Shown one piece after another: positions 5,503-46,773 of a stretch of DNA of 61,569 nucleotides. Made by a program: the position numbers and the translations under genes. Under the pieces are notes generated by a model. It was not told where the DNA came from. It saw only the letters and a list, made by a program, of their open reading frames with translations, and ran no database searches. This DNA comes from Rhodospirillaceae bacterium. GTDB taxonomy: Bacteria; Pseudomonadota; Alphaproteobacteria; MPNO01; UBA2964. Position 1 is the first letter of the stretch. Each line of letters starts with the position of its first letter. The stretch spans positions 1 through 61,569 of the forward strand of contig PAPV01000007.1 of assembly GCA_002709075.1 (NCBI GenBank). Direction: 5' to 3'.

Positions 5503-6738
5503 TTATTTTTGCTTCCTTGAAATTCGATCCATTATCAAGATTATTATAACTCCAACAAAGGATGAGATTGCGACTACCCAACCTGCAGCTTGCCAATCTG
5601 AGGCCCATGCAATTATGAGGGCCGTAATTGGTGGAAGAATTAATGTGCCGATATTTCCTCCCTGTACAACCCAACCTACTGTCATTCCAACTAGCTCATG
5701 TCTTGGAGCAAATGTAGTGACAGCACTCCAGAGAGCTCCTGGTATCAGGCCGCAAACTGCCGAATACAAAACAGCCATTCCATAACGTATCTCCAAGGAG
5801 AGAAAACTGGAGAATATCCAAACAGAGACAACTCCTGTGAATATTGAACCGCCAATCAGTATATTTATTAAAGCAATATCTTTTTTTCTCAACCAACCAC
5901 CAAAAATATTGCCGAGGATATTCACCATAACCGCAAATGCAACCAAATAGGCCGAGTTACTACGACTTACTCCAAGTTCGTCCACCAACATAGTAGGTAA
6001 GAAACCGTAAACTGTTAAATAATTACCGGTATAGGTTCCGAAGAATAAGCCCAATAAAACTGGCCTGGGGTTTTTAAAAAAATCCAAAACATCTTTAATA
6101 TTTGCCCGATTAACCCTCGGAAAACCAGATGGCTTTTTAATACCCCTTGTCGTAAATATTACAACTATAGCAAAAATGCCTGCGATAATTCCATTTGCTA
6201 ACCATAATCCACGCCAACCCAAACCAGCATATTCAAGAAAAATAGGGGCACTCAGCATCATTATCGACGTGCCAGCAGGCATATAAGCCCCCCAAATACC
6301 GAGCGCTATTCTTCGATCGCCTTCCGATGAAGCAACCCAACCTAGAATAGCTGGAACAGAAACGACAATTGGAAGGTAACCAACGGCTTCAATTAAACGC
6401 GCGAAAAGAAGAAGCTTTCCATTTGAGGCGAACGCCCCCAAAATACTTCCCACTGCTATAGAGATGAGACCAAATACTAAGGCTCTGCGATAACCAGCTA
6501 CATCCGAAAAAAAACCACCGAAGATGCCGATAATTGAGGCCACAAAGGCGTAAATGCTTATAAGCCATCCTGCAAAAAAAAGATCTAGTTCGAGTTCTTC
6601 TCTTATCCAAGCAAGAGCTGGAGGGGCTTTACCAATCTGGAAAGCGCAAACTATCCCTGCGCCTAGCAAAACCAGAATAAGTGGCCAATTTGTACCAAAT
6701 TTAATTGTTTTTAAAGACAAATTACATATCCGTTGCAA
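5503..6738 (-). CDS. MFS transporter, CynX/NimT-like
   Basis: A 411-residue polytopic membrane protein with about twelve hydrophobic segments. The first helix reads WPLILVLLGAGIVCAF; the MFS loop 2-3 motif is degenerate, GGFFSDVAGYRRAL, and helix 5-type IMMLSAPIFL follows. The second half begins near residue 215 after a basic loop (IKKPSGFPRVNRANIK). The arrangement resembles the CynX/NimT and related anion or drug carriers; the substrate cannot be read from sequence. It is a single-gene unit with no partner enzyme beside it. The start at 6738 gives a short basic tail before helix 1 and fits the family. Confidence 0.85.
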   Translation of the reverse strand: MQRICNLSLKTIKFGTNWPLILVLLGAGIVCAFQIGKAPPALAWIREELELDLFFAGWLISIYAFVASIIGIFGGFFSDVAGYRRALVFGLISIAVGSILGAFASNGKLLLFARLIEAVGYLPIVVSVPAILGWVASSEGDRRIALGIWGAYMPAGTSIMMLSAPIFLEYAGLGWRGLWLANGIIAGIFAIVVIFTTRGIKKPSGFPRVNRANIKDVLDFFKNPRPVLLGLFFGTYTGNYLTVYGFLPTMLVDELGVSRSNSAYLVAFAVMVNILGNIFGGWLRKKDIALINILIGGSIFTGVVSVWIFSSFLSLEIRYGMAVLYSAVCGLIPGALWSAVTTFAPRHELVGMTVGWVVQGGNIGTLILPPITALIIAWASDWQAAGWVVAISSFVGVIIILIMDRISRKQK

Positions 6739-8620: not shown

Positions 8621-8987
8621 GCCAGATGGTTGGATGGCCGCTTTTTACATTAGGGGAAACCCTGCAAAAAGAGGAAAGTCCGGGCTCCACGGAAACACGG
8701 TGCCGGGTAACACCCGGCGGGGGAGACCCCAGGGAAAGTGCCACAGAAAGCAAACCGCCTGCAGTAACAGGTAAGGGTGAAAGGGTGTGGTAAGAGCACA
8801 CCGCGCTATCGGTAACGATAGTGGCAGGGGAAACCCCACCGGGAGCAAGACCGAATAGGGGCAGCGACATGAGTGTCCGCATTGCTGCCCGGGTGGGTCG
8901 CATGAGATGTACGGCAACGTCCATCCCAGATGAATGGTCATCACCTGTTATGACAGGAACAGAACCCGGCTTATAGACCATCTGGTA
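8621..8987 (+). ncRNA. rnpB: RNase P RNA, bacterial class A
   Basis: Catalytic RNA that matures tRNA 5' ends. The P1 helix closes the molecule: CCAGATGGT at 8622-8630 pairs with ACCATCTGG at 8977-8985. The universal core pieces are present: GAGGAAAGTCCGGGCTCC near 8671-8688, a CAGGGAAAGTGCCACAGAAA segment near 8730, GGTAAGGGTGAAAGGGTG near 8771, and the 3' box AGAACCCGGCTTATAGACCA around 8961-8980. A run of eight T at 8988-8995 directly after P1 forms the intrinsic terminator. Frames on either strand across this stretch are by-products of the RNA. Confidence 0.97.
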
Positions 8988-9151
8988 TTTTTTTTCAATC
9001 GACAGAAACGGCTTAGAAACTTTAACAAAGCCCATTATTTTCCGTAGACGTGTTTTGTTTTTTAACAAGGACTCATAATTTATCTGCTAAAACCCAACAA
9101 TATCATCTTAATTTTTTGTCCAACTGTATAGAAGCAAGGTCGATGATCCCA

Positions 9152-40756: not shown

Positions 40757-40858
40757 GCCAGGGGAGCCCGAATAGATGGCTGAGATGTCGGTTATTCATG
40801 CGATTCAATAATCTGACGACCCTTAAAACCTGAAGCGGATAATGCCGTCGAAGGGAGG
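40757..40858 (+). promoter_or_regulatory. TPP riboswitch (THI element)
   Basis: All conserved THI-box parts are present in order: AGGGGAGCC at 40760-40768, GGCTGAGAT at 40778-40786, a variable P3 arm, ACCC near 40819-40822, AACCTGAAGCGGATAATGCC ending at 40845, and GTCGAAGGGA ending at 40855. Thiamine pyrophosphate binding by this element is established for the family. It controls the gene run downstream, so that run belongs to vitamin B1 metabolism. A TCCTTC at 40892-40897 can pair with the GAAGGA of the first ribosome binding site at 40915-40920, suggesting control of translation (inference). Confidence 0.97.
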
Positions 40859-40931
40859 AAATTGTGACCAAATTAATTACAAATCAAATTATCCTTCTAA
40901 CAAAATTTATAAAGGAAGGAATGAAAATACA

Positions 40932-42017
40932 GTGAACCAAACAAATATCATCCGTTCTATAATGGAATTTATAAATTCAAATAATAAAACCGAAAATGAA
41001 TTTAATGAGCTAGCAATCGAAATATTTGAATATCAATATGCAAATAATTCCCCGTTTAATTTATTTGTTAAGCAGCAAGGCTCTAGCCCAAAGGTAGCAA
41101 AAACTTGGAAAGATATTCCACCCTTACCTATAAGTGCTTTTAAAAGAGTTAATCTTAGCTGTTGCCCACCAGCCAAAACAGGTCGCACATTTATGACTAG
41201 TGGAACCACTCAGATCAATATGAAAGGAAAAAGTTTTCACCCAACATTATCTGTTTATGATAGGTCGATGATAAAAAATTTTAAGGCCCGATTTTTACCG
41301 GAAATCGAAAAAATCAGAATGGGAATTCTGTTTCCCAAAGAAGATGTTATGCCTAATTCTTCATTAGCGCATTATCTAGCACTTGCATTTAAAACATTTG
41401 GCACTCCGAATAGCGGATATTATTTAAATTCAACCGGCATTGAATTTAAAAAACTATTTAAGGACTTAAAAATTTCACAGGAGACAAAAGAACCTGTCGC
41501 CATTTTGGGTGCAAGTTTCAGTATTGTGCATCTTTTAGATGAGATGAAAAAATTAGGAAAAAGTTTTCAACTGCCGATTGGAAGCAAAATTTTAGATACA
41601 GGGGGTTTCAAAGGGCAATCAAGAGAAGTCGAGCAGGAAGAGTTTTATGAACAATTATCATCAGCATTTGGGATCCCTCGCAGAAACTGTATAAACATGT
41701 ATGGAATGACGGAATTAAGCACCCAGTTTTATGATTGTGGGAATGAAATCTGCCCGTCTGTAAAGACAGGGCCGCACTGGATTAAATCTAAAGTAGTTGA
41801 CCCGCTTACCAAGCGAGAAGTCAAATCTGGTGATGTTGGACTACTAGTGCATTGCGATTTGGCACATTTTAATATTGTTTCGACAATTTTAACTGAAGAC
41901 ATGGGTGTAGAAAGAGATAGTGGATTTATTTTGTTAGGTCGTGCCGTTGGTGAAAATGCGAAAGGTTGTTCATTAGCTGCAGATGAATTCTTAAATTCTA
42001 TCAAAAATAATGACTGA
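40932..42017 (+). CDS. LuxE-like acyl-protein synthetase (carboxylate-activating)
   Basis: A 361-residue member of the LuxE family, in which the enzyme forms an acyl-AMP from a carboxylic acid and ATP and then moves the acyl group to its own Cys and on to LuxC. Readable motifs are TSGTT (about 89-93), MGILFPKEDVMPNSSLAHY, ILGASFSIVHLLDEM, YGMTELSTQ, and C-terminal GRAVGENAKGCSL with the acyl-acceptor Cys346. The start is GTG at 40932 with GGAAGG 12 bases upstream; ATG 40962 is an alternative. The TPP riboswitch upstream points to a thiamine-related acid rather than a fatty acid. It overlaps the next gene by eight bases. Confidence 0.85.
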   Translation: MNQTNIIRSIMEFINSNNKTENEFNELAIEIFEYQYANNSPFNLFVKQQGSSPKVAKTWKDIPPLPISAFKRVNLSCCPPAKTGRTFMTSGTTQINMKGKSFHPTLSVYDRSMIKNFKARFLPEIEKIRMGILFPKEDVMPNSSLAHYLALAFKTFGTPNSGYYLNSTGIEFKKLFKDLKISQETKEPVAILGASFSIVHLLDEMKKLGKSFQLPIGSKILDTGGFKGQSREVEQEEFYEQLSSAFGIPRRNCINMYGMTELSTQFYDCGNEICPSVKTGPHWIKSKVVDPLTKREVKSGDVGLLVHCDLAHFNIVSTILTEDMGVERDSGFILLGRAVGENAKGCSLAADEFLNSIKNND

Positions 42018-43470
42018 TTTCATAGAAAATGCTGGTCACGTTCCAGATTTTATTAAAAATGATATCACTTGGGAAAAATTAACATATTCTCAAAATTCAC
42101 ATTCATTAACGGTGAATGTCCCAATACTAACCCCCGTACAATGTGATCAGTTAGCTAGGCACATAAAGGATAACAGCAGGCAGTTTTTAAAAAAGCAAAC
42201 AGTTGACTCAATAATTGATTTAGTTGATCAAGTAATAGATCGACTTTTAAACAGAGACGACCCAATTAGAAAAAAAGCTGAGCAATTATTGCCTTTGATT
42301 ACAGGTTTCGACCCAGAAATGAGCAGGCTTAGTTTAACCAGGTATTTAAAAACATTTAGAAAACCACAACTATTACGCTTCGTCAGTGAAGATTTTTCTA
42401 ATCCGAAAATTCTTGATGACTTTCAACCAATCGTAAAAGGTGGATTTGCGAAGGCTTATGGACCGGACTGTTTGCTTCATATTTGGTCCGGTAATGTACC
42501 AGGGTTACCGCTTTGGAGCCTGATTTCTGGCCTGCTGGTAAAAGCAGGTAATATCGGAAAGATTGCGAGTTCAGAACCCCTGTTTGCATCTTGGTTCACA
42601 AAGTTACTTATAGAGATAGAACCTAAACTTGCAGACTGTCTGGCTATTCTATGGTGGGAAGGGGGCACACAGGATCAGGAAAATAGTTTGTTGCAACATT
42701 CAGATGTTGTTTTGGCTTATGGAGACAACGACACCATAAAGCAAATACGAGATCGAACCCCAATAAAAACACGATTTTTATCTCACGGACATAAAATTAG
42801 TTTTGGAATAATTTCAGCACAGGTTTTAGATCCGCAAAAAGTTTGGAGTGTAGCCCATAATGCTGCAGCTGATATTGTTCAGTACGATCAACAAGGCTGT
42901 TATTCTCCACACATTTATTTTGTGGAGGCGGGAACTAATATAACACCTCAAGCATTCGCTAAATATGTTGCGCATGAACTTTCATGCTTCCAAAAAAAGT
43001 TTCCGCGAAGAGTATTAAACACAAAAGAGGCTATTCAGCTTGCGTCATGGCAAAATAACCAGGAACTGGAGTCAGTTTCTAATCCGAGAAAAGAAATTTT
43101 TCGAGACAAAGACGGAGCGTGGACTGTTATATTTAATGAGAGTGATAAAGATTTTTGCTTAAGCGGACTTAATAGAACCATAAGCATAATTGAGGTAAAT
43201 TCGCTCAATCAAGTAGTTCCTATAATATCCCCCTACAAGGATTTTTTGCAAACAGCTAGTTTAGCAGTAGCTCCAGATGAATTATTTAGTTTATCAAGAC
43301 AACTTGGTGAACACGGGGTTACTCGCATTACGAGCATAGGATCAATGACTGCGCCCGAGGCAGGCTGGCATCATGACGGAAGATTTAACTTACTAGATTT
43401 GGTAACATTCACAGAGATAGAGAGTTTCTTAGAGGGATATTCGGATATGTTTGCCAATTACACAGATTGA
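42010..43470 (+). CDS. LuxC-like acyl reductase
   Basis: A 486-residue member of the LuxC/acyl-CoA reductase family, distantly related to aldehyde dehydrogenases, reducing an enzyme-bound acyl group to the aldehyde with NADPH. The catalytic Cys297 is present in YDQQGCYSPH, the exact place of the acylated Cys in LuxC. Other marks are IWSGNVPGLPLWSL, KIASSEPLFASWF, AYGDNDTIKQIRD and RFLSHGHKISFG. It directly follows the LuxE-like gene, as luxC and luxE work as a pair. No luxA, luxB or luxD is present, so light production is excluded here. Confidence 0.85.
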   Translation: MTDFIENAGHVPDFIKNDITWEKLTYSQNSHSLTVNVPILTPVQCDQLARHIKDNSRQFLKKQTVDSIIDLVDQVIDRLLNRDDPIRKKAEQLLPLITGFDPEMSRLSLTRYLKTFRKPQLLRFVSEDFSNPKILDDFQPIVKGGFAKAYGPDCLLHIWSGNVPGLPLWSLISGLLVKAGNIGKIASSEPLFASWFTKLLIEIEPKLADCLAILWWEGGTQDQENSLLQHSDVVLAYGDNDTIKQIRDRTPIKTRFLSHGHKISFGIISAQVLDPQKVWSVAHNAAADIVQYDQQGCYSPHIYFVEAGTNITPQAFAKYVAHELSCFQKKFPRRVLNTKEAIQLASWQNNQELESVSNPRKEIFRDKDGAWTVIFNESDKDFCLSGLNRTISIIEVNSLNQVVPIISPYKDFLQTASLAVAPDELFSLSRQLGEHGVTRITSIGSMTAPEAGWHHDGRFNLLDLVTFTEIESFLEGYSDMFANYTD

Positions 43471-43478
43471 TTTATAAA

Positions 43479-44240
43479 ATGAATTTCGTCTCTATAAGGG
43501 ATGTAAGCTTTGCGTATAAGACAGACCACGCTGTAATAAAAGATATAAATTGGGAAATCCCGAAAGGCGAGTTTCATAGTTTAATTGGACGTAGTGGTTG
43601 TGGAAAAACAACGCTATTAAAAGTAGTGGCGGGCTTACTCACTCCAACAGTTGGAAAAATTTCAATATCCAATACCTATGTTTCCAAACCTAGTCTGCAA
43701 ACTGGGTTTGTATTTCAAGCACCAACCCTTCTAGAATGGTTGTCTGTTCTTGACAATATTCTATTACCTCTCAGGATAAACCATGAAATCAATTCTGAAC
43801 GAATCGAACTTGGTTTAGAGATCTTATCAGCAGTTGGACTAAAAGATTTTTCGAGGCATTACCCAAGTGAACTCTCCGGAGGACAGCAAAGCAGGGTTGC
43901 AATAGCTCGAGCACTAATAACCAAGCCTGTATTGTTGTTAATGGATGAGCCATTTGCTGCTCTAGACGCTATGACAAGAGAAGAATTGCAAATCGATTTA
44001 CTAAATTTATGTTATCGAAGAGGCACAACTGTTCTTTTTATCACCCACGATATCGCAGAAGCTGTTTATTTATCTGACAATATCGCTCTTATGCATGATG
44101 GTTCAATTCAAAAAAATTTCTCTATTAACATTGCCAAGCCAAGAGGAGATAAGATTCGCTACCAACCAGAATTTAATGCGCTTTGCTCGAATATTCACCA
44201 GACCATGCAAACTTTCCATTCACAGAACGAGATAGGGTAA
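43479..44240 (+). CDS. ABC importer ATP-binding subunit, SsuB/TauB/ThiZ-like
   Basis: A 253-residue nucleotide-binding subunit with Walker A GRSGCGKTTLL, Q-loop FQAPTLLEWL, signature LSGGQQSRVAIARAL, Walker B LLLMDEPFAALD and H-loop FITHDIAEAV. This subfamily serves nitrate/sulfonate/taurine/thiamine-precursor importers, which use NMT1-type binding proteins. The start is ATG 43479; TTG 43467 overlapping the luxC-like stop is an alternative. Together with the two genes that follow it forms a complete importer. Confidence 0.92.
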   Translation: MNFVSIRDVSFAYKTDHAVIKDINWEIPKGEFHSLIGRSGCGKTTLLKVVAGLLTPTVGKISISNTYVSKPSLQTGFVFQAPTLLEWLSVLDNILLPLRINHEINSERIELGLEILSAVGLKDFSRHYPSELSGGQQSRVAIARALITKPVLLLMDEPFAALDAMTREELQIDLLNLCYRRGTTVLFITHDIAEAVYLSDNIALMHDGSIQKNFSINIAKPRGDKIRYQPEFNALCSNIHQTMQTFHSQNEIG

Positions 44241-44247
44241 TACAACA

Positions 44248-45012
44248 ATGAATAGAGTTTTTTCGTTAATTTTATTTCTATTCATACTAACGCTCTGGGA
44301 GGTATTTTGTCGCGTTTCAAACATATCCTCAATTATAATACCGGCACCAAGTGCCGTCGGCCTAATTTTATGGGATGGTTTAACGCAAGGTTATTTATGG
44401 ATCCATATTTGGGTAACAACTCTGGAAATGACGCTTGGCTTAGTCATTGGATGTTCTTTCGGGGTGCTATCTGGACTATTGCTGAGCGAAAGTGTATTTT
44501 TGAAAAAAATACTTTGGCCATATATTTTAGCTAGTCAAGTGATACCAAAACTCGCATTGGGGCCAATTTTTATAATATGGTTTGGCTTTGGGATGACCTC
44601 AACTGTAACAATTACTGCTTTGATCTGTTACTTTCCTTTGTTAGAGAATACTCTTACAGGTGTTCATTATATTCCTCGAGAGAAACGCGAGTTATTTAGA
44701 ATGCTTGGAGCAACCAGATTACAAACGCTTATTTTGTTAAAAATACCGCACGGTTTACCCACCATTTTAGCCGGAGTAAGAGTTTCTGTCGTTTTAGCTC
44801 TGGTTGGAGCAGTGGTTGGTGAATTTCTGAGTGGTCAAGTTGGACTAGGCGCAACCATAATTGCCGCACAGGGTATGATGGACTCTGCACTAATGTTTGC
44901 TGTTTTTATCATTATAACATTCATCGGTCTCGCTTTCTATCAAATTACAAGTATCATTGAGCGTTGGCTTTTGCGCCGACATAATGCAGGAGTTTTTAAT
45001 GCAAATTTTTAA
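44248..45012 (+). CDS. ABC importer permease subunit, SsuC/ThiX-like
   Basis: A 254-residue membrane subunit with about six helices and the EAA-type loop (YIPREKRELFRMLGATRLQ then ILLKIPHGLPTILAGVR) that contacts the ATPase. It belongs to the binding-protein-dependent transport permease family used by sulfonate, taurine and HMP importers. The gene lies seven bases after the ATPase stop and overlaps the binding-protein gene by 14 bases. Confidence 0.92.
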   Translation: MNRVFSLILFLFILTLWEVFCRVSNISSIIIPAPSAVGLILWDGLTQGYLWIHIWVTTLEMTLGLVIGCSFGVLSGLLLSESVFLKKILWPYILASQVIPKLALGPIFIIWFGFGMTSTVTITALICYFPLLENTLTGVHYIPREKRELFRMLGATRLQTLILLKIPHGLPTILAGVRVSVVLALVGAVVGEFLSGQVGLGATIIAAQGMMDSALMFAVFIIITFIGLAFYQITSIIERWLLRRHNAGVFNANF

Positions 45013-45994
45013 GACTAACTTTTTCGTAAACATCCTATTCACTGCGATGACACTCATGTTATTGATTAAGACTTCAGCTTTACAAGCGTTAGAAAAGTTT
45101 TCTGTCGCCGGATGGAGCAAACCTATTAGTGAAATTACAAATCTTCTAGCTGAACCCGACAAGGGTTTTTTTAAAAAAGAAGGTATAAATTTGGTTTATG
45201 TTTCCGGTACTGGCGGCGGCTCTGCGATTACGAATATGCTGTCCGGCGCCGCTGATATTGCATTTACTGATCCCGCCTCATTTTTTCAAGCTCTGGACCG
45301 GGGAGAAAAACTGATTGCTATTTATAATATTTATCCTCAAAATATTTTCAATGTTGTTTCGCTAAAATCTCAAAACATTATGGATCCGGCTGACCTACAG
45401 GGTAAAAAAATTGGCGTTTATAGCTTATCTAGTGGCACTCGGCAGAACTTACAGGTCTTGCTGCATCAGTTTGGTTTAAGCGAGCAGGACGTTACAATTC
45501 AGGTCACCGGACTTTTAAATTTTGCACCACTCATCCAGGGTCAAGTGGATGCTACGGCGGCAACCGACACAGGTCTTTTTGTTGGAAAATTAAGAGGCCT
45601 GAGAGACGTAAATGTCATCAAAATAAAAAATTATCTTAACATTCCAAGTGATATGTTTGTTGTAACAAAAACCACCTACAACAAAAGAAAGAGTATTTTG
45701 CGACGTTTTCTCTCTGCATATAAAAAATGTTCTCAATGGATGATTGATAAACCAAGAGAGGCTGCCAAAATTGCAAAAAGAAGATCTATAAATGGTCGGA
45801 ACGAAGATATAAATTTTGAAATTATTCAATTGCGAAATGCATCGTCTGTCTCAAAAACAACACAGAGGTTAGGTTTAGGACACTTTGATTTAGACTTACT
45901 TAGAAAAGGAGTAGAAACATTTAAAAATTTGGGTTTAATCAAGAGGCCTATCAATATCGAAAATGTGGTTAAGTCCGACTTAATTCCGGACTGA
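44999..45994 (+). CDS. ABC importer substrate-binding protein, NMT1/THI5-like
   Basis: A 331-residue periplasmic binding protein with a signal peptide (MQIFKTNFFVNILFTAMTL, cleavage about residue 29-31). The NMT1/THI5-like fold is recognisable from GFFKKEGINLVYV, GGGSAITNMLSGAADIAFTD and PADLQGKKIGVYSLSSGTR. In this family members bind taurine, nitrate or pyrimidine thiamine precursors. Under a TPP riboswitch, a thiamine precursor is the likely ligand (inference). ATG 44999 has AGGAG seven bases before it and puts the signal peptide at the very N-terminus. Confidence 0.9.
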   Translation: MQIFKTNFFVNILFTAMTLMLLIKTSALQALEKFSVAGWSKPISEITNLLAEPDKGFFKKEGINLVYVSGTGGGSAITNMLSGAADIAFTDPASFFQALDRGEKLIAIYNIYPQNIFNVVSLKSQNIMDPADLQGKKIGVYSLSSGTRQNLQVLLHQFGLSEQDVTIQVTGLLNFAPLIQGQVDATAATDTGLFVGKLRGLRDVNVIKIKNYLNIPSDMFVVTKTTYNKRKSILRRFLSAYKKCSQWMIDKPREAAKIAKRRSINGRNEDINFEIIQLRNASSVSKTTQRLGLGHFDLDLLRKGVETFKNLGLIKRPINIENVVKSDLIPD

Positions 45995-46005
45995 GGAACC
46001 AAGAA

Positions 46006-46773
46006 ATGGACTTAAGGGGTAACATAGCACTTATTACCGGATCCAGTCGGGGTATTGGAGCGGCAATAGCGAAGGCATTTGCACATGAGGGTGCCACGGT
46101 CGCAATTAATTATAAAAATAATGCGTTGGTTGCGGATAAAATTGTTAATGAATGCAGAGAACTAGGAGGCATAGCGGAATGTTTCCAGGCAGATGTCACC
46201 ATTCCATCAGAATGCAGGAGTTTAATTAATTCAGTGGCGTCTGAATTTGGAAAGTTAGATATCTTAGTAAATAATGCCTTCCATCCTTATAATTTCATCC
46301 CAGAAAAACGAAAAATGTTTTGGGACCTAGAATGGGAGCACTATCAATCTCAGATAGAGGGGTCGTTATTATCAACTCATAGTTTATGCAAGGCAGCATT
46401 TCCATTAATGCAAAAAACAGCAAACGGAAAAATTGTCAATATCACTACGGATTTAATCTCAAAACCGTCGATACCTTACCACGAATATACCACGGCAAAA
46501 TCTGCGTTAACTGGTTTCAGCAAAAATTTAGCCGCAGAAATGGGACCATTTGGCATCAGAGTAAATTGCGTAGCACCTGGTTTAGTTTACCCAACGGACT
46601 CAAGTGCGGAAACAAAAGAGAACCTTAAGGAAATGATAATTGCACAAACACCGCTTCGTCGGATTGCAAATCCAGAAGATGTTGCTGGCGCAGTGTTATT
46701 TCTTGCTTCAGATTGGAGCAGATTTATCACAGGGCAAACGATTTTTGTCGACGGTGGCCTAATAATGAATTAA
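46006..46773 (+). CDS. Short-chain dehydrogenase/reductase
   Basis: A 255-residue classical SDR using NAD(P)H. Cofactor motif TGSSRGIGAA (residues 12-21), LVNNAFHP where most have NNAG, and catalytic Tyr161 and Lys165 in YTTAK. The usual catalytic Ser position carries Thr148 (in NITTDL), a conservative change that may still work. DGGLIMN closes the protein. It begins 11 bases after the binding-protein stop, with GAGGAACC upstream, and is the last gene of the riboswitch operon. In the proposed pathway it would reduce the aldehyde made by LuxC to an alcohol (inference). The family is too broad to name a substrate. Confidence 0.9.
   Translation: MDLRGNIALITGSSRGIGAAIAKAFAHEGATVAINYKNNALVADKIVNECRELGGIAECFQADVTIPSECRSLINSVASEFGKLDILVNNAFHPYNFIPEKRKMFWDLEWEHYQSQIEGSLLSTHSLCKAAFPLMQKTANGKIVNITTDLISKPSIPYHEYTTAKSALTGFSKNLAAEMGPFGIRVNCVAPGLVYPTDSSAETKENLKEMIIAQTPLRRIANPEDVAGAVLFLASDWSRFITGQTIFVDGGLIMN

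Follow-up and report, generated by a model that had tools for sequence, protein, structure and literature searches.

A thiamine pyrophosphate riboswitch operon with LuxE- and LuxC-like enzymes as a probable salvage route for an oxidised thiamine pyrimidine

Bacterial light production is the setting from which LuxE and LuxC enzymes are mainly known, and the locus described here raises the question what such a pair can be doing behind a thiamine pyrophosphate (TPP) riboswitch. The locus lies in a stretch of 61,569 nucleotides (the window: contig PAPV01000007.1, positions 1 to 61,569) from the 2.52-Mb, 99.9% complete genome of a Rhodospirillaceae bacterium (GCA_002709075.1), hereafter the host. 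Six genes on the forward strand, closely packed with short junctions and several overlaps, encode, in this order, a LuxE-like and a LuxC-like enzyme, the ATPase, permease and THI5-like binding protein of an ATP-binding cassette (ABC) importer, and a short-chain dehydrogenase/reductase (SDR). That this cassette has a role in thiamine (vitamin B1) metabolism, as proposed in the initial annotation made from the letters alone, is close to certain in view of the riboswitch, the conserved gene order, the thi-gene neighbours and the lack of ThiC in the host. More specifically, the operon is probably a TPP-repressed salvage system for an oxidised thiamine pyrimidine, in which the acid is taken up and reduced by LuxE, LuxC and SDR to hydroxymethylpyrimidine (HMP).

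The reading of the locus as a TPP riboswitch followed by six close genes was borne out: all six genes matched families, and the aptamer was recovered in an Rfam search (RF00059) as the sole TPP riboswitch of the host genome. With LuxE as query, 374 relatives were obtained from 84,980 species genomes, and the loci of the best 80 of these 374 were compared. The 80 loci stem from Alphaproteobacteria, Betaproteobacteria and Firmicutes, and luxC follows luxE in every one of them. Because 78 of the 80 have a TPP riboswitch upstream of luxE in the same orientation (covariance model), the pairing is not a matter of chance, and relatives consistently without riboswitch, an outcome named beforehand as speaking against a thiamine role, were not encountered. 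Seventy-four of these riboswitches lie less than 400 bases from luxE, 58 of them outside the set from which the model was built, and the remaining four are separated from luxE by thiD or thiW. The riboswitches of relatives score 55-75 bits with RF00059, and Rfam's own model confirms examples among them. The complete six-gene set is present in identical order in 64 of the 80 loci, so that the co-occurrence of LuxE, LuxC, THI5-like ABC genes and SDR under TPP riboswitches, for which a search had been suggested, was found; the other loci are luxE-luxC-SDR cores or are mostly cut at contig ends.

Closer to the host, a luxE orthologue is present in 11 of the 13 genomes of the window's family (with a riboswitch directly upstream of luxE in 10/10 relatives) and in 18 of the 27 genomes of its order, where the core common to all 17 relatives is luxE-luxC-SDR. 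Further afield, carriers include Domibacillus, Geobacillus, Neobacillus, Desulfosporosinus, Polaromonas, Curvibacter, Limnohabitans, Variovorax, Ramlibacter, Azospirillum and Bosea, and the cassette is found in plasmid records of Pantoea (core without ABC genes), Priestia and Azospirillum. Viral contigs scanned with LuxE gave one match, weak and short. Some carrier records (L078, L099) may be misnamed or misbinned metagenome-assembled genomes, e.g. a 'Flavobacteriales' contig with alphaproteobacterial synteny.

Which part of thiamine is concerned is suggested by the other thiamine genes of the host. No ThiC was found (no PF01964 match, in a search that was positive in 13 of 14 control genomes), and ThiM and TPK are absent from all 27 genomes of the order, host included; present are ThiG, clustered with ThiO and ThiE, and a ThiD well above the curated cut-off. 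With ThiO, ThiG, ThiE and ThiD present and ThiC absent, the host can thus make the thiazole and join the pyrimidine to it but has no known pyrimidine synthesis. This is the pattern of an HMP auxotroph, which needs the pyrimidine from outside, and the operon behind the riboswitch is where one would naturally look for the lacking supply. ThiC is absent from 26 of the 27 order genomes; in the exception (L032, G012:C222) thiC and the cassette stand side by side, each with a TPP riboswitch of its own.

In some loci the cassette lies beside further thiamine genes, namely thiD, thiMDE, thiW or thiOSG. Inside nine of the 80 loci there is a thiD, against about 0.16 expected (assuming one copy per 4.5-Mb genome). 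Two Ramlibacter loci have the order riboswitch, thiD, luxE and then the rest, thiM/thiD/thiE or thiD/thiE adjoin the cassette in Neobacillus niacini, Bacillus sp. OK048, Metabacillus and Desulfosporosinus, and in Limnohabitans sp. Jir72, which is without ThiC, the neighbours are thiD and thiO-thiG (thiO by sequence motif only). ThiC was likewise not found in Ramlibacter montanisoli B156 and Bacillus sp. OK048. The cassette was linked to thi genes in 4 of 7 carriers without ThiC and in 3 of 35 with ThiC (Fisher P 0.009, the groups having been set after looking). The gene of the predicted thiazole importer ThiW is part of the operon in Niallia, Neobacillus niacini and Bacillus sp. OK048. On a Variovorax sp. 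WS11 plasmid (L102:7644-8001), a short open reading frame (ORF) between riboswitch and luxE resembles both ends of thiD and is apparently a deleted thiD.

In the case of the importer, the host has the ThiXYZ-type make-up, i.e. a THI5-type binding protein, an ABC ATPase and a permease under TPP control. The structure model of the binding protein (predicted local distance difference test score, pLDDT, 87) finds its best fold match in ThiY (3ix1; template modelling scores 0.79/0.86, at 18% identity), followed by a thiamin-binding protein and Thi5. At the position of the ThiY motif GIPVNEP the protein has SLSSGTRQN, a Ser/Thr/Arg-rich loop at a helix start which, we infer, would suit an anionic group. 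The importer varies between carriers: among the order relatives the ABC genes lie inside it in only 3 of 17, and in one genome (G013) they stand apart under their own riboswitch. In lactobacilli and Niallia it is replaced by an NCS2 nucleobase permease. A Lactiplantibacillus 10-kb plasmid (L249:1390-6321, NZ_CP035118.1) has a confirmed riboswitch and then genes for an NCS2 permease, LuxE, LuxC and SDR, the same four genes are found on a Levilactobacillus plasmid, and the Niallia taxi plasmid pMEGANia (L250:3697-9289) has two tandem TPP riboswitches, thiW, NCS2 permease, luxE, luxC and SDR. Since importers of two unrelated types, of the THI5 fold and for nucleobases, serve the same three enzymes, a pyrimidine ligand fits better than a thiazole.

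The sole solved sequence relatives of the two Lux-like enzymes are LuxE and LuxC of the luminescence fatty acid reductase complex (PDB 7xc6). LuxE Cys346 aligns with the C-terminal cysteine of 7xc6 LuxE (KGCSLS) and is conserved in relatives within a GCS motif that is found in all 80 (61 by regular expression, 19 as GCSI in printed lines); a structure model of LuxE, of poor quality (pLDDT 73), was left out of the fold searches. LuxC Cys297, which had already been named as catalytic, indeed aligns with the catalytic cysteine of Photobacterium LuxC (QQACFS, 7xc6). Judged from these alignments, the conserved cysteines support a path from acid via an acyl-LuxE thioester and an acyl-LuxC thioester to an aldehyde. 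The SDR, kept in every order relative and in 74 of the 80 wider loci (the other six end before or within it), is proposed as the natural aldehyde reductase of the cassette.

The following scheme would connect these parts. The ABC importer, or the NCS2 permease in some relatives, would take up a pyrimidine carboxylate, most likely 4-amino-2-methylpyrimidine-5-carboxylate; LuxE would activate the acid with ATP and hold it as a thioester on Cys346, LuxC would take over the acyl group on Cys297 and reduce it to the aldehyde, and the SDR would convert the aldehyde to HMP. ThiD, which accepts a primary alcohol, i.e. the product class of the proposed reduction, and ThiE would then bring HMP into thiamine monophosphate, and at high TPP the operon would be shut off via the riboswitch. 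What the analysis directly supports is the conserved gene set, the riboswitch, the catalytic cysteines and the host's lack of ThiC beside ThiO, ThiG, ThiE and ThiD; the substrate and the direction and order of the reactions we infer from them, with 4-amino-2-methylpyrimidine-5-carboxylate or a close relative as the presumed acid. In its outline, namely the import of a thiamine fragment and its reduction from carboxylate to alcohol, the initial annotation is supported by the riboswitch, gene order, thi neighbours, conserved cysteines and absence of ThiC; it had left a pyrimidine and a thiazole acid side by side, of which the former is now favoured and the latter disfavoured.

Several observations weigh against the salvage of a pyrimidine acid, or at least narrow it. 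The fold family of the binding protein is broad and includes sulfonate binders. Within the order, ThiC is missing both with and without luxE, and ThiC is present in 35 of 42 tested carriers, so that carriers are not limited to pyrimidine auxotrophs, and a strict correlation between the cassette and a lack of ThiC was rejected; for most carriers the route would be a matter of economy, not necessity. Seven carriers of the order families f2 and f3 lack ThiC, ThiG and ThiM, and no thiazole source was found in them (Thi4 was not searched); one of them (G025) has no ThiD over the cut-off. Finally, three f2 genomes (G016-G018) carry the luxE-luxC-SDR core, no riboswitch having been detected at luxE; the single riboswitch of each lies elsewhere.

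These points bear on the choice of the acid. Families f2 and f3, with the core but no ThiG, could be taken to use 4-methylthiazole-5-acetate, reduced to hydroxyethylthiazole and phosphorylated by ThiM, and thiM does adjoin the cassette in four loci. It is never there without thiD, however, and no order genome has ThiM, while the host makes its thiazole via ThiG; moreover, thiW already belongs to the operon in the three carriers named above (Niallia, Neobacillus niacini, Bacillus sp. OK048), and a nucleobase permease is an unlikely thiazole carrier. We therefore regard a thiazole acid as distinctly unlikely, and the pyrimidine acid is preferred over it because of the host's thiamine genes (ThiG present, ThiC and ThiM absent), the adjacency of thiD, the thiW in the same operon in some relatives and the nucleobase permease as alternative importer. 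The same f2/f3 carriers without ThiC, ThiG and ThiM would be suited by thiamine acetic acid, i.e. thiamine with an oxidised side chain that is reduced back to thiamine, which a riboswitch-controlled APH-type kinase of a sister genome could phosphorylate. This substrate is very unlikely given that TPK is found in none of the 27 order genomes, that thiamine itself has no need of the neighbours thiD and thiE, and that NCS2 permeases transport single bases, not thiamine-sized cations.

Pyrimidine salvage might also involve a different acid, substituted otherwise on the ring or with a longer acid side chain, or an aldehyde that is imported as well and needs the SDR alone. The 5-carboxylate was not among the compounds measured in PMC10881298, where the known pyrimidine vitamers in water are HMP, aminomethylpyrimidine (AmMP) and formylaminopyrimidine (FAMP). 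The 5-carboxylate is, however, the simplest acid that gives HMP by two two-electron reductions, and it is known as a metabolite of thiamine (Neal and Pearson 1964, cited in PMC7780320), which makes these variants unlikely. Furthest from the salvage of a pyrimidine acid is a system for fatty-acid or envelope-lipid aldehydes that acquired its TPP riboswitch by accident. Public records do label the genes as long-chain fatty acid-CoA ligase, acyl-CoA reductase and 3-oxoacyl-ACP reductase, and the LuxE and LuxC of light production use fatty acids. Against this, the riboswitch is retained across phyla, the cassette comes with thi genes and with an importer of THI5 type or for nucleobases, and the host proteins score far below the NCBIfam equivalog cut-offs for luminescence (LuxE, NF052244, 71.3 vs 550 bits; LuxC, NF052251, 122 vs 750 bits). 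Fatty aldehyde contexts, which would have pointed away from thiamine, were not seen either, no lipid gene family recurring among the neighbours; and as had been remarked at the outset, no luciferase gene (luxA/luxB) is present among the six operon genes, the remaining genome not having been searched for it. The fatty-aldehyde reading is scarcely credible, and it was rejected along with luminescence.

The cassette resembles several known systems in part. With LuxC-LuxE of luminous bacteria (7xc6) it would share ATP-dependent acid activation and thioester reduction, as the two aligned catalytic cysteines suggest, but it is without luxD, luxA and luxB and has TPP-riboswitch control, a fixed link to an SDR and usually an importer. 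ThiXYZ with YlmB/TenA, which salvages FAMP, likewise has a TPP-regulated THI5-type ABC importer for a thiamine pyrimidine, ThiY being the best structural match; the cassette enzymes would reduce an acid rather than hydrolyse an amide or amine, and neither YlmB nor TenA is encoded in the operon, the remaining genome not having been searched for either. Transport of HMP by ThiV, CytX, YkoF and similar proteins, followed by ThiD, also supplies pyrimidine to genomes without ThiC, but by uptake alone, whereas here a two-step reduction would come after uptake. The use of carboxythiazole (cHET; PMC5899164) has in common a carboxylated thiamine precursor as nutrient, but cHET belongs to the thiazole side and no carboxylate reduction is known there. 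The operon is best seen as a new branch of the TPP-controlled salvage of thiamine precursors, one whose components come from known protein families.

Communities in water and soil are shaped by vitamin B1, and among marine microbes the form of B1 auxotrophy met most often is that for the pyrimidine (PMC11452348). The evidence leans towards the cassette being a further general route of thiamine-pyrimidine supply besides ThiC and the salvage of HMP, AmMP and FAMP, spread over several phyla and plasmids and standing in for ThiC in lineages such as the window's order, Limnohabitans and Ramlibacter montanisoli. The gene set is widespread yet apparently undescribed: text searches found no LuxE/LuxC in the TPP regulon survey PMC3766115 or in the vitamer gene list of PMC10881298, and literature searches, with supplements and most subscription papers outside their coverage, found no description of LuxE/LuxC or acyl-protein synthetase with a TPP riboswitch or thiamine, in agreement with the initial statement that no system of such make-up is known. 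If the proposed route is real, its occurrence in hundreds of genomes would alter the list of bacteria that count as auxotrophs, add a new vitamer and a role of LuxE/LuxC outside light production, correct the 'long-chain fatty acid-CoA ligase' annotations, and imply an unmeasured environmental pool of oxidised thiamine pyrimidine; the prediction is testable in culturable strains.

Table 1. Parts of the riboswitch operon, in window coordinates
Feature	Position	Strand	Evidence
TPP riboswitch aptamer, RF00059	40750..40873	+	cmscan 59.0 bits vs gathering 54.3
Possible expression-platform hairpin, 7 bp UCCUUCU/GGAAGGA, over luxE Shine-Dalgarno	40892..40920	+	minimum free energy (MFE) fold; suggestive only
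luxE-like, acid-activating acyl-protein synthetase, 361 aa, GTG start, predicted acyl carrier Cys346	40932..42017	+	PF04443 77 bits vs cut-off 24.9
luxC-like, acyl-thioester reductase, predicted catalytic Cys297	42010..43470	+	PF05893 311.7 bits
ABC importer ATPase	43479..44240	+	PF00005
ABC importer permease	44248..45012	+	PF00528
THI5/ThiY-like binding protein with signal peptide	44999..45994	+	PF09084 (NMT1/THI5) 154 bits
SDR oxidoreductase, proposed aldehyde reductase	46006..46773	+	PF13561/PF00106

The start of luxE was placed at the GTG because it aligns with the starts of relatives; an ATG that lies within the aptamer, at 40842, is unlikely to serve as start. The ATPase probably starts at the listed ATG, its ORF being open also from a TTG at 43467, and the binding protein probably at ATG 44999. 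Repression at high TPP is the mode that we presume for the riboswitch; the leader region of the host is no more stable than shuffled sequences (z -0.15) despite a plausible hairpin masking the Shine-Dalgarno sequence (MFE fold). Bacillus leaders have a terminator-like hairpin and T-run, judged by eye.

TPP riboswitches of the order are also found at other genes. In G014 (L203:4865-6035) one is followed by an APH-type kinase gene (PF01636), a candidate thiamine kinase in genomes without TPK, and the sister genomes G015-G018 have a single riboswitch each, at apparently similar unannotated ORFs. A second TPP riboswitch of G022 (L208, ~6259-6366, minus strand), a genome without ThiC and ThiG, precedes an importer of the Peripla_BP_6 branched-chain-amino-acid-type ABC class with an SDR nearby, and in three order members without luxE (G023, G024 and G026; L209, L210 and L211) a TPP riboswitch stands before a different SsuA/THI5-type ABC importer. 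Elsewhere in the window, positions 8622-8989 hold an RNase P class A RNA gene (330 bits).

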